Origin: Terriglobia bacterium
Lineage (GTDB): Bacteria; Acidobacteriota; Terriglobia; Bryobacterales; Bryobacteraceae
Direction of reading: 5' to 3'
DNA length: 64,000 nucleotides
Assembly (NCBI GenBank): GCA_020073265.1
Contig: JAIQFN010000014.1
Location: 1 to 64,000 of the forward strand
The notes beneath the pieces are model-generated. The model did not search any database. It was not told the origin of the DNA and saw only the letters and a program-made list of their open reading frames with translations. Made by a program: the position numbers and the translations under genes. This document shows, in pieces, positions 29,464 through 55,491 of this stretch; position 1 is the first letter of the stretch, and each line of letters opens with the position of its first letter.

Positions 29464-29554
29464 GTGGGGCAGCCAATCGTGGCTGCAGCCGCCTTTAGGC
29501 GGCTCTCGTATGGCGCCGGCTAAAGCCGGCGGCGGGCAGGATTGCCCGCCCCAC
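29464..29554. repeat. Dispersed palindromic repeat family 1, full copy
   Basis: GTGGGG and CCCCAC ends enclose four hairpins: AGCCA/TGGCT, GCCGCC/GGCGGC, GCCGGC-TAAA-GCCGGC and GCGGGCA/TGCCCGC. It sits between two convergent genes. It resembles REP/BIME elements and matches the copy at 50446-50532. Confidence 0.8.
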
Positions 29555-50445: not shown

Positions 50446-50532
50446 GTGGGGCAGCCAATCCTGGCTGCAGTCGCCTTTAGGCGGCCCTCACTGCCGGCTA
50501 AAGCCGGCTGCGGGCAGAATTGCCCGCCCCAC
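50446..50532. repeat. Dispersed palindromic repeat family 1, full copy
   Basis: GTGGGGCAGCCAATCCTGGC, then GCCGCC-type, GCCGGC-TAAA-GCCGGC and GCGGGCA/TGCCCGC hairpins and CCCCAC at the end. Nearly identical in layout and mostly in sequence to 29464-29554. Located between convergent uppS and the sigma-54 activator. Confidence 0.8.
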
Positions 50533-50576: not shown

Positions 50577-52496
<1,920 letters not shown>

Positions 52497-52615
52497 CTCG
52501 ACGGTTCGCTCTTTGGTATGAGTATAGCGGATCAGCGTCTGTTTTCGCGTCCTCCCGAGGGGTTACGAGGCGTGCGCGCCGGGAGACGGCCAGTGCGGCC
52601 CGGCCTAAGGGAAAC

Positions 52616-52637
52616 ACCCTATCCGCCAGGATAGGGT
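52616..52637. promoter_or_regulatory. Perfect palindrome, candidate activator binding site
   Basis: ACCCTATCC-GCCA-GGATAGGGT, 9-bp arms. It is 141 bp upstream of the sigma-54-type promoter and 120 bp from the activator start, a usual place for an enhancer site of a Fis-type regulator. Confidence 0.6.
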
Positions 52638-52639
52638 TT

Positions 52640-52655
52640 CTATCTGTTTGGATAG
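52640..52655. promoter_or_regulatory. Second related dyad
   Basis: CTATC-N6-GATAG, directly after the first palindrome and sharing its CTATC/GATAG core, as expected for tandem sites of one dimeric protein. Confidence 0.45.
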
Positions 52656-52662
52656 CCGAAAA

Positions 52663-52675
52663 GGCCTCAGAGGCC
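52663..52675. repeat. Third short palindrome
   Basis: GGCCT-CAG-AGGCC, unrelated to the other two in sequence. Role unknown. Confidence 0.35.
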
Positions 52676-52777
52676 CTAAGAGTGCTTGCCGCCGCTTGCC
52701 GGATTCTGTTACTATCCCTCGCTTTTTCAGCGTATTAGATCACTTTAGTACGGTGCAGTTTAGAGTAGTGGTACGCT

Positions 52778-52793
52778 TGGCAATAGGGTTGCA
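52778..52793 (+). promoter_or_regulatory. Sigma-54-type (-24/-12) promoter
   Basis: TGGCAAT-AGGG-TTGCA. The GG and GC pairs are separated by 10 bp as required, and TGGCA and TTGCA match the consensus exactly. Predicted transcription start is near 52804, 44 bp before the peptide ATG. Confidence 0.7.
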
Positions 52794-52847
52794 TTCCTAA
52801 GGGCGTTCAGCAAGACCAAGCAGTAATCAACGAAGGAGGGAAAAGCG

Positions 52848-52898
52848 ATGAGGACCAAGACCAAGATCAAGGCTGGCGTGGTTATCTGGGAGCCCTAA
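52848..52898 (+). CDS. 16-residue peptide gene of unknown function
   Basis: ATG to TAA encodes MRTKTKIKAGVVIWEP. AAGGAGGG, one of the best ribosome sites in the window, lies 7 bp upstream. The peptide is basic at the N-terminus (four Arg/Lys in the first eight residues) and hydrophobic at the C-terminus. The sigma-54-type promoter before it and the terminator after it make it the only reading frame of a short transcript. A RiPP precursor, signal peptide or regulatory leader are possible; no modifying enzyme is adjacent. Confidence 0.6.
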   Translation: MRTKTKIKAGVVIWEP

Positions 52899-52958
52899 CC
52901 AAGCGGCCCCTGCAGTCAAAACGAGTCTGGCTAATACACCGGCTCGCATAAATTTTAG

Positions 52959-53003
52959 AAACCGCGGCTTCACCTTGCAGTGGAGCCGCGGTTTCGCGTT
53001 TTT
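52959..53003 (+). terminator. Rho-independent terminator
   Basis: AAACCGCGGCT and AGCCGCGGTTT form an 11-bp stem, extended by CAC/GTG in the loop, and TTTTT follows. It ends the peptide transcript before the ABC permease gene. Confidence 0.8.
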
Positions 53004-53026
53004 GAGCCTCCCTTTCAAGCGCGGTC

Positions 53027-53032
53027 TATAAT
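53027..53032 (+). promoter_or_regulatory. -10 box of the ABC permease gene
   Basis: TATAAT, with TTGAGC 19 bp upstream as a weak -35. The ATG of the permease gene is 20 bp after it. Confidence 0.5.
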
Positions 53033-53052
53033 GCTACTTACAAGCAATTGGG

Positions 53053-55491
53053 ATGCAACACCTGGGGAAGGACATTCGGTACGGGCTCCGCACGTTGTCA
53101 AAGACCCCAGGTTTGACGGCCGCGGCCATCCTCACCCTGAGCTTGGGGATCGGCGCCAACAGCGCCATCTTTAGCGTCATTGACGCGATTCTGATCCGGC
53201 CGCTGGCTTACAGAGACGCCGGCAACCTGGTCCTGGTGTATGGCGACCGGCCGGACAAGGGTGTCAGGCGGCTGCCCGTCGCGCCTCCGGATTTTAGAGA
53301 CTTCGCCGCTCAGAGCCGCTCTTTCGACCAGATCGGGGCCTTCCGCTCGCAGCCTTCCGTGCTCACCGGCCGGGACCTCGCGGAGCGAGTGGAAGCAACC
53401 GCGGTTTCTCCCAGCATCTTCGAACTATTGGGCGTGAAGGCCAGGCTCGGCCGCCTGTTCGCGCGCGACGAGGATCAAGCCGCCAAAAATTCGGTGGCGA
53501 TCCTGAGCGATGGGCTGTGGCGCCGCCGCTTTGGCGGCGATGCGGGCGTGCTTGGTTCCTCGCTGACCTTGGCCGGCAGGAGCTACACGATCATCGGAGT
53601 GGCTCCGGAGAAATTCCGGCTTCTGGACAATCCCAGCGATCTCTGGATTCCGTATTCGCCCGATCCGGAGGAACTGGCTCCGTTGAAACGCGGCTATCGT
53701 TCACTGACGGTGATCGCTCACCTGCGGCCTGGAGTTACTCAAGCACAGGCCGAAACCGAGATCGAGGCGGTGGCGCGGCGAATCGCGGACGCGAATCCGC
53801 AGACCAACGCGGGCTACGGCGCCGAAGTGGTCCCGCTCAAGGAGCAGATGGTGGGAGATATCCGGCCCACGTTGTGGACCTTGCTGGGAGCGGTCGCCTT
53901 CGTGCTTCTGATCGGGTGCGCCAACGTGGCCAATCTGATGCTGGCGCGGGCGGGCACTCGCGAAAAAGAAATCGCGGTGCGGACCTCGCTGGGGGCCAAT
54001 CCCGCGCGGCTGATCGGGCAATTGCTGACCGAGAGCGTGGTGCTGGCGGTGATCGGCGGACTGGCCGGCCTGCTGCTAGCCTACTGGGCAACTCCGGCTC
54101 TGGTGAAGCTGGCGCCTGCCAACATTCCCCGCGCCGACGAGATTTCGCTGGACTGGCGCGTGCTGGTGTTTACGCTCGCGATCTCGGTGGTAACGGGAAT
54201 CGTGTTTGGGCTGGCGCCCGCGCTGCTGACTGTCTCGAGCGATCTGAACTCGATCCTGAAGACCAGCGGCCGCAGCACCACCGGGTACCGGACCCGCAGC
54301 CGCGCCCGGGACGCATTCGTGGTTTCCGAGATCGCGGCGTGCGTGGCCTTGCTGATCGGGGCCGGGCTTCTGATTCGCAGCTTCGAGCGCTTGCAGGACG
54401 TGAATCCGGGATTCCGCGCCGATCACCTTTTGACCATGCAGATCTCGCTGCCGGAGACGCGTTACTCCGGGCTGAAGGTTGCCTTGTTCTACCAGCAACT
54501 GCTGGAGCGGGTCCAGGCGCTGCCGGGTGTGAAGGCCGCGGGAGTGTCCCGTTTTCTGCCCCTGGGCGGCGGCGATGCGAGCGCCAATTTTCAGATCGCC
54601 GGCCAGCCGAGCGGCGCCATCGCCGATCAGCCGCGCGCCAAGTTCCGAGCCACCAGCGAGGCCTACTTCGCCGCGGTGGGCATCCCTCTGCTCCAGGGCC
54701 GCCTGTTCGACCGCACGGATGGCCAGAACTCGCCCAAAGTGGTGATCATCAACGACCTGGCTCGACGCCGCTATTGGCCCAACCAAGACCCGATCGGCAA
54801 GCGCATCCAGGCCGGCTTCGATGAAAGCAACTGGGCGACGATCATCGGCGTGGTGGGCAACGTAAGACACGCCGGCTTGGACGCCGAGATCAGCCCCGAG
54901 ACCTACTATCACTACCTGCAGATCCCCCCGGAGGTAATGAACTTCGCCGAAGGAACCATGGCGCTGGTGCTTCGAACCAGCGGAGATCCAGCGGCGCTCA
55001 CGCCGGAGGTGCGGAACGAACTGCGAACCCTGGATCCGAACCAGCCGGTGTTCAACGTGCGGACCATGGCGGAGGTGATTTCAGGATCGGTGGCACAGCC
55101 GCGCTTTCGCACTCTACTGCTGACGATTTTCGCCTCGCTCGCTCTGCTGCTGGCCGCCATCGGGCTGTACGGAGTGATGGCCTACTCGGTGACGCAGCGG
55201 GTCAACGAGCTGGGAGTACGCGCGGCTCTGGGCGCGCAGCCCAGCGACATTCTGAAGCTGGTGGTGGGACACGGCCTGCGGCTGGCGCTGGTGGGAATCG
55301 GGGCTGGAGTTCTTCTCGCTTTGGCCGGCAGCCGCATCATCTCGCGGTTGCTGTTCGGTGTGAAGGTGATCGATCCGCTCACCTTCGGCGTGACTTGTCT
55401 GGGAATGCTGGCGGTCTCTACGCTTGCATGTCTGGTTCCGGCCTTGAAGGCCACCCGAGTGGAGCCGGCCAAGGCGCTGCGCGCCGAGTGA
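53053..55491 (+). CDS. MacB-like ABC transporter permease (acidobacterial duplicated orphan type)
   Basis: 812 residues. Two FtsX-like membrane units: the first with LGKDIRYGLRTLSKTPG, AAILTLSLGIGANSAIFS and a MacB periplasmic domain, followed by three helices (GAVAFVLLIGCANVANLMLA), then a second periplasmic domain and C-terminal helices (VMAYSVTQRVNELGVRAALG). No ATPase gene is adjacent, as is usual for this expanded acidobacterial family. Substrate unknown. It lies downstream of the peptide gene but has its own promoter. Confidence 0.88.
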   Translation: MQHLGKDIRYGLRTLSKTPGLTAAAILTLSLGIGANSAIFSVIDAILIRPLAYRDAGNLVLVYGDRPDKGVRRLPVAPPDFRDFAAQSRSFDQIGAFRSQPSVLTGRDLAERVEATAVSPSIFELLGVKARLGRLFARDEDQAAKNSVAILSDGLWRRRFGGDAGVLGSSLTLAGRSYTIIGVAPEKFRLLDNPSDLWIPYSPDPEELAPLKRGYRSLTVIAHLRPGVTQAQAETEIEAVARRIADANPQTNAGYGAEVVPLKEQMVGDIRPTLWTLLGAVAFVLLIGCANVANLMLARAGTREKEIAVRTSLGANPARLIGQLLTESVVLAVIGGLAGLLLAYWATPALVKLAPANIPRADEISLDWRVLVFTLAISVVTGIVFGLAPALLTVSSDLNSILKTSGRSTTGYRTRSRARDAFVVSEIAACVALLIGAGLLIRSFERLQDVNPGFRADHLLTMQISLPETRYSGLKVALFYQQLLERVQALPGVKAAGVSRFLPLGGGDASANFQIAGQPSGAIADQPRAKFRATSEAYFAAVGIPLLQGRLFDRTDGQNSPKVVIINDLARRRYWPNQDPIGKRIQAGFDESNWATIIGVVGNVRHAGLDAEISPETYYHYLQIPPEVMNFAEGTMALVLRTSGDPAALTPEVRNELRTLDPNQPVFNVRTMAEVISGSVAQPRFRTLLLTIFASLALLLAAIGLYGVMAYSVTQRVNELGVRAALGAQPSDILKLVVGHGLRLALVGIGAGVLLALAGSRIISRLLFGVKVIDPLTFGVTCLGMLAVSTLACLVPALKATRVEPAKALRAE

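Follow-up and report, generated by a model that had tools for sequence, protein, structure and literature searches.

What does the cell make from the gap between a divergent sigma-54 activator gene and a plus-strand permease gene, at positions 52497–53052 of the window (the whole 64,000-nucleotide stretch analyzed here)? The earlier note had seen a complete regulated unit whose only product would be a tiny peptide or a small RNA. Our reading, to which we assign a probability of roughly 70%, is that the gap encodes a sigma-54-controlled precursor that would be cut after Gly10 and exported as a signaling hexapeptide. C39 peptide export is a known kind of process; the unusually small precursor and its sigma-54 control would be new.

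The elements that had been pointed out are all present. The activator gene (50577–52496, minus strand; 639 aa) has the proposed FHA-GAF-AAA+-Fis architecture, as indicated by Pfam matches to FHA, GAF, Sigma54_activat (PF00158, 250 bits) and a Fis-type HTH (PF02954) that barely exceeds its cut-off (23.1 vs 22 bits). Two related palindromes of the form CTATC-N6-GATAG lie at 52619–52634 (CTATCCGCCAGGATAG, inside ACCCTATC..GATAGGGT) and, 21 bp further on, at 52640–52655 (CTATCTGTTTGGATAG); they are the only two in the 64 kb, with 0.01 expected, and are probable activator sites. On the plus strand follow CTTTAGTAC (52743–52751), which the alignment suggests is part of a genus-conserved stretch with GGTAC at 52770–52774, and the putative sigma-54 promoter TGGCAATAGGGTTGCA (52778–52793), a TGGCA-N6-TTGCA site with correctly spaced −24 GG and −12 GC elements. 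This site occurs once in the window, with 0.12 expected and at least one in 12 of 100 shuffles; by itself the match is weak evidence, but it is conserved in relatives, and the genome encodes RpoN (G000:C85:304319-305881, 400 bits, over the cut-off). From the usual promoter spacing, transcription would start near 52804. A ribosome-binding site, AAGGAGGG (52833–52840; AGGAGG-like in relatives), precedes the 16-codon gene MRTKTKIKAGVVIWEP, which runs on the plus strand from an ATG at 52848 to a TAA ending at 52898, with a putative leader MRTKTKIKAG and a presumed core VVIWEP. The strong terminator that had been noted is a 16-pair stem (52958–52995) followed by T5, the whole spanning 52958–53003 on the plus strand. 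Elsewhere in the window, two copies of the REP-like sequence GCCGGCTAAAGCCGGC(T/G)GCGGGC lie at 29515–29537 and 50493–50515; none occurred in 100 shuffles.

Loss of the frame or promoter in relatives had been named as one outcome that would speak against the proposal; both are kept in the five genomes examined from the genus and in G032, which belongs to another genus. At the nucleotide level, a search of 101 genomes with the 509-base region matched four at E 0.01 or better, its own included. In other genomes it aligned best over the ribosome site together with the frame's first half and, for G001, over the palindrome pair; within its own genome the region found only itself, its terminator arms matching each other, and chance-level pieces. 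Comparison of loci showed that frame, sigma-54 promoter and palindromes recur beside orthologous activators in all five genus genomes, with one to three peptide genes each, and in G032. The activator orthologues are 78–81% identical in the four other genus genomes examined. G001 and G002 encode MRTKTKIKSGCAVWGT, MRTKTKIKAGCAVWGT or MKTKTKIKAGIAVWGT, and MRTKTKIKAGIAVWGT, the array of G001 being split over two contigs; G003 encodes MKTKTRVKAGAATWGT and MRTKTKVRAGAATWGT, and G004 MRTKTKVRAGNSSWGS. Each of these genomes has a TGG[CT]-type site 59–70 nt before the ATG of at least one peptide gene; in G003 the first peptide gene lacks a clear sigma-54 site. In G032 an activator of 58% identity, palindromes and TGGTAAGGCGATTGC are followed by five tandem frames (two copies of MKVTTKVKSGSAVWGT and three of MKVTSKVRAGGSVWGD, a run of N lying within the series) and then an ADOP gene. 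Conserved alignment blocks comprise the palindromes, an element around CTTAGTAC/GGTAC, the promoter, the ribosome site and the frame, while the remainder varies.

These comparisons bear on whether the product is a peptide or an RNA. Across 13 distinct ORFs, pooled pairwise dN/dS is ∼0.19, which supports rather than proves coding because the ORFs were chosen with a loose amino-acid pattern that biases toward low values; four separate pairs show 15 synonymous against 6 changing single-base codon differences. A small regulatory RNA with an incidental frame would also explain a short terminated transcript with its own regulated and conserved promoter. However, the amino-acid pattern is kept across genera despite different codons, and little is conserved beyond the palindromes, the short upstream element, the promoter, the ribosome site and the codons. 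The leader RNA is less structured than its shuffles (z +1.49; 188 of 200 fold at least as well), and an Rfam scan of 51.5–54.0 kb found no family near its gathering score (best E 2.3). We regard the small RNA as very improbable. Of the two products that the earlier note had left side by side, the comparison thus favors the precursor peptide, and coding of the 16-codon frame is well supported.

The plus-strand neighbor (53053–55491) is a clear ADOP-family permease, scoring 994 bits against a TIGR03434 cut-off of 622; it is presumably its own transcription unit, and its role in the peptide system is uncertain. ADOP genes stand behind the peptides not only in the window but also in G001, G002 and G004 and, at 50% identity, in G032, so that the peptide might instead be a leader or partner of the permease, acting by attenuation or as its substrate or regulator, and not C39 cargo. 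This idea is weakened by the strong terminator between the two genes and by the 29 ADOP genes over cut-off in the genome, which make such a neighbor less telling. Arrays of up to five peptide genes, each with its own ribosome site, are unlike an attenuator. Nor was an ADOP match found in the ∼1.5-kb flanks of the G158, G163, G164, G264 and genus g50 loci described below, or in the 1.3 kb behind the G003 peptides, up to the contig end. A partnership with the permease is therefore improbable, and we return to an independent precursor peptide.

We looked for further members among 237 genomes of the bacterial family. The pattern M[KR]TKTK[IVM][KR][AST]G with one mismatch occurred at 25 places in 12 genomes (reversed control, 1) and brought in relatives starting MKTKTN[VIM]KAG; a Trp14 DNA pattern for window-like peptides hit 31 places on 18 contigs of 15 genomes (reversed control, 0). 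The loci examined hold 27 distinct window-type peptides, listed only where a ribosome-site-like motif lies upstream, and in all of them a basic stretch of 10 residues closing with [AS]G is followed by a short, variable end, in most cases xxxWGx. Among the 25 sixteen-mers, Met1, Gly10 and Trp14 never vary, V or I fills position 7 and A or S fills position 9, all as the sixteen-mer search required (Gly10 and Trp14 also being required by the Trp14 pattern). Gly at position 15 (22 of 25) was not a search requirement; positions 11–13 and 16 vary. The core from the window ends in WEP, unlike the common WGx. A relaxed pattern allowing up to two mismatches found, in the genome of the window, the copy in the window itself and one two-mismatch place (control, 1).

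More distant forms extend the family. Across 399 genomes of the class, a looser pattern gave 20 places in 6 genomes (reversed control, 0). Many of the finds are single frames of 14–38 codons, frequently arranged in tandem, in which the start is constant and the end variable, such as KAG-GFPFVG and KAG-GVPFVD, among others, at locus L086, and KAG-GVKGPG and KAG-GYHPG at L078. The minus strand of L086:1300-2540 carries five 16-residue frames, with starts 160–320 nt apart and GFPFVG, GVPFVD, GFPFVD, GFPFTG and SFPFIG after KAG; no exporter gene was recognized by eye in the 6 kb examined there. Long precursors are also found in Acidobacteriota (L147:12387-13490, minus strand; L074:2866-3426; L113; L125). 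These repeat a leader-like unit, xVKTxVKAG ... NHNQ/NHND, over up to 367 residues, some with paired Cys, and look like multi-core versions of the 16-residue peptides. A scan of the genome collection for ATGARRACNAARACNAANRTNAARGCNGG returned 23 stretches, all in metagenome-derived draft genomes, with records named Acidobacteriota, Chloroflexaceae, Gamma- and Deltaproteobacteria, and Binataceae.

NCBIfam and Pfam gave nothing convincing for peptides of several types, including with the NHLP/Nif11 precursor models of NCBIfam, and among the open-literature matches listed there was no paper on this peptide family, subscription journals being mostly uncovered. The short sigma-54-linked peptides thus form an unnamed family, in that no family model searched and no listed paper names it. 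A weak T6SS Hcp match of L065 and family-model matches of the 367-residue repeat protein were taken as chance, and the one match of that protein in a plasmid collection (24% identity) is probably unrelated.

How closely is the family tied to the activator and to sigma-54? On 10 of the 18 contigs with Trp14-pattern peptides, the peptide genes have an FHA-type sigma-54 activator as neighbor (G000, the genome of the window; G001 C300; G002; G003; G004; G032; G158 C15; G163; G164; G264), the activator match being cut by the end of the examined locus in G158 C15, G163, G164 and G264. HlyD adjoins the peptides on four (G123, G126, G130 and G136 C270), and neither gene was seen on the remaining four (G001 C275, G027, G136 C84 and G158 C4). 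The sigma-54 link is not universal, since no sigma-54-like site was seen before the peptides of genus g50, G163/G164 or contig C4 of G158. At L198 in G264, duplication of a ∼400-bp unit that contains a sigma-54 site and a peptide gene gives each peptide its own promoter.

The palindromes, with their predicted binding role, accompany the activator in 5 of 5 genus genomes and at 5 of 26 other activator loci; they are absent from the other 21, some of which have little or no upstream sequence. They also stand upstream of activators without such peptides (L025, L031, L035 and L038). At L035 (G081), a protein of ∼145 residues that begins with a hydrophobic stretch lies downstream of tandem palindromes and a TGGCTGCGCGATTGCA site, an arrangement indicating that this activator type has other kinds of target. 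The activator at L025 (G038), at 61% the nearest one outside the genus, is accompanied by palindromes and TGGCACGGGGATTGCA; no KAG peptide was seen behind it. Because a palindrome search of the genome of the window gave two further sites (C91 and C95) and the control three, we claim no palindrome regulon. The layout of tandem palindromic upstream sites, a −24/−12 promoter and an AAA+ activator resembles NtrC/NifA-type sigma-54 systems, with the differences that the target here is a 16-codon gene and the input domains are FHA and GAF.

Exporter genes lie beside some of the peptides. At L078 and L077, the peptides are directly followed by genes for an HlyD protein and for an ABC exporter whose N-terminal domain is a C39 peptidase, and at L081 a peptide lies behind a C39-peptidase ABC exporter (all C39 assignments by Pfam). 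This exporter subfamily occurs in 15 of 399 class genomes, including that of the window (on G000:C57), and in 35 of 237 family genomes; all 35 of 35 exporters have the catalytic Gln, Cys, His and Asp. The exporter of the genome itself (G000:C57:17499-20105), whose C39 domain matches PCAT1 and ComA, has a shortened HlyD before it and a second ABC protein after it, and pieces of an apparently broken ADOP gene lie ∼5 kb before it (G000:C57:11021-12838). This shortened HlyD, of 145 residues, has no Pfam match. In all, short forms precede C39 at L146:8065-8502 and L148:9018-9437 (139–145 residues) and at L166 in G128 (∼160 residues); those of G000 and G004 align with residues 1–59 and 285–380, the two ends of full HlyD, the middle being absent. 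In the genome of the window, peptide gene and exporter lie on different contigs. The complete regulated unit that had been proposed therefore holds as to its elements and fails as to self-containment, because the C39 exporter of the family is encoded elsewhere.

Direct linkage is found in other genomes. The exporter adjoins the activator of the peptide locus in G004; a peptide gene stands directly before HlyD and C39 in G123, G126, G130 and G136 (genus g50), and before a shortened HlyD and C39 in G128. G225 (L147) combines in a single locus the activator, sigma-54-type sites, peptides, TPR, HlyD, C39 and a second ABC protein, with domains confirmed by Pfam; it has a 38-residue and a 30-residue peptide gene and also encodes the 367-residue repeat precursor. 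Upstream of 35 exporter loci, a peptide gene was found within 2.2 kb in 10, against 0 of 35 in the reversed control. The 35 loci come from 31 of the 35 family exporter genomes plus G081, RYN_603, JOPF126 and UBA1466, with G132, G172, G197 and G274 not counted because they were partial or lacked a usable exporter locus. Excluding the 12 genomes matched by the earlier peptide pattern searches, 6 of 23 loci still have an upstream peptide, four of them window-like (MKVKSNVKAGRAVWGA, ..KGLWGA, ..RTVWGA and MKVKSSVRAGQSIWDS). Misses are expected in these counts, as the upstream stretch was often ∼1.4–1.5 kb long and only 292 and 442 bases in G125 and G179; the upstream peptide of G123 was missed in the 35-locus count and found later.

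Co-occurrence extends beyond linkage. The exporter is present in 14 of 15 Trp14-peptide genomes against 21 of 222 others (Fisher 2e-12, a value inflated by relatedness). Counted by genus, the exporter is found in 16 of 76, and these include all 6 peptide genera (chance 4e-5). The association is not mere linkage, because peptide and exporter lie on different contigs or far apart in nine genomes (G000, G002, G003, G027, G032, G158, G163, G164 and G264). The one peptide genome without an exporter at threshold, G001, is a 94% complete draft. Against a general rule stand the 21 genomes with the exporter but without the Trp14 peptide type, and the palindrome-bearing activators without peptide. Overall, comparison supports the peptide–exporter link well. 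Retention of the intact peptide inside the cell, where it might for instance regulate a membrane or nucleic-acid target, would suit the basic N-terminus, the lack of a conventional signal peptide and an exporter encoded in trans in the genome of the window; the strong co-occurrence, the direct linkage elsewhere and the variable core beside a constant leader nevertheless make this unlikely, and export remains the preferred fate.

A constant, basic beginning that closes with [VI]-x-[AS]-G, followed by a short variable stretch, is what would be expected of leader and core. The PCAT/AMS systems (ComA-ComC, LahT and PCAT1) likewise join a constant leader and variable core to a C39-peptidase ABC exporter, here with Q/C/H/D, and their substrates share the hydrophobic −4 position (I7 in the window peptide; V/I in 25 of 25, as the search required). 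The HlyD partner recalls Gram-negative type I secretion. According to the available text of PMC6363468, double-glycine leaders carry GG, GA or GS at −2/−1 and hydrophobic residues at −4, −7 and −12. Here, in contrast, the presumed cut follows AG (19 of 25) or SG (6 of 25), position −7 is Lys in 22 of 25 and Thr or Asn in the rest, and the leader, only 10 residues long before a core of ∼6, has no −12. We suggest that the peptide resembles a double-glycine substrate in its working but, with only −4 in agreement, do not assign it to that class.

Other known systems are partial parallels. In Synechococcus elongatus, small secreted proteins with a GG motif take part in biofilm development (PMC4997328, in the part available); compared by description only, the likeness lies in small size, a Gram-negative host, a GG secretion motif and group behavior, and the difference in a canonical GG there against 16 residues with AG/SG here. 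The NHLP/Nif11 systems (TIGR03794/03796/03797) also have HlyD, a C39 ABC protein and a second ABC protein. However, in a cut-off test covering the exporters of L078 and L081, the L078 exporter scored 168 and 169 bits against cut-offs of 853 and 709, and the HlyD of L078 scored 40 bits against 156. PatS and HetN of heterocystous cyanobacteria are Gram-negative examples of a tiny gene with a short active C-terminal peptide. The available part of PMC10986499 describes the C39 exporter HetC as suggested to export PatS/HetN-type peptides, its substrate unproven, and states that hetC has no membrane fusion protein gene in its vicinity. By description only, the tiny gene, the short peptide and the C39 exporter are common to that system and to ours.

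Taken together, the FHA-GAF activator would bind the two palindromes ∼125 bp upstream and, with RpoN, would open the sigma-54 promoter, yielding a short terminated transcript that would be translated into the 16-residue precursor; these steps rest on conserved sequence of the activator, the promoter and the message elements. The first ten residues, M[KR]x[KTN][TS]x[VI]x[AS]G, would serve as a minimal leader recognized by the C39 ABC exporter. In the genome of the window the probable partner is G000:C57:17499-20105, encoded on the other contig, as suggested by co-occurrence and by the arrangements in G004 and G225. The exporter may cut after Gly10 and release the hexapeptide VVIWEP (mostly xxxWGx in relatives), which would act outside the cell, most likely as a signal.

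Instead of a signal, the exported product might be a bioactive peptide of some other sort, for instance a small one resembling a bacteriocin, or a RiPP whose maturation enzyme is encoded at another place. Bacteriocins and RiPPs are common cargo of C39/HlyD exporters, according to the part of PMC6363468 available, Cys or NHNQ motifs recur in the repeat units of the related long precursors, and tandem variable cores would fit a toxin or natural-product library. Six residues would be very short for a bacteriocin, though, and in the ORFs inspected by eye next to the peptides no modification enzyme stood out. We consider this possible rather than probable, and continue to favor a signal.

Genes of 16 codons fall below usual annotation limits, and to our knowledge there are few documented cases in Gram-negative bacteria of short peptide signals whose exporters are defined. 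In its available text, PMC10986499 considers functions of such exporters beyond toxin export in Gram-negative bacteria probable, with evidence lacking. The present comparison supplies a leader motif together with a candidate exporter, a promoter and a regulator, which makes the idea testable. Only tentatively do we go further, to a new form of Gram-negative peptide signaling in which sigma-54-switched, often tandem 16-codon genes would each supply a Trp-containing hexapeptide (xxxWGx), released by a dedicated C39 exporter by way of a minimal 10-residue leader, and the FHA-GAF activator would close an autoinduction loop, the leader unit being reused in Acidobacteriota precursors of up to 367 residues and single-unit peptides occurring in several phyla. 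The product is probably a secreted mini-peptide, perhaps a cell-to-cell signal, and it would open a peptide family spread over Acidobacteriota and, judged by its leader, also present in records carrying the names of other phyla.
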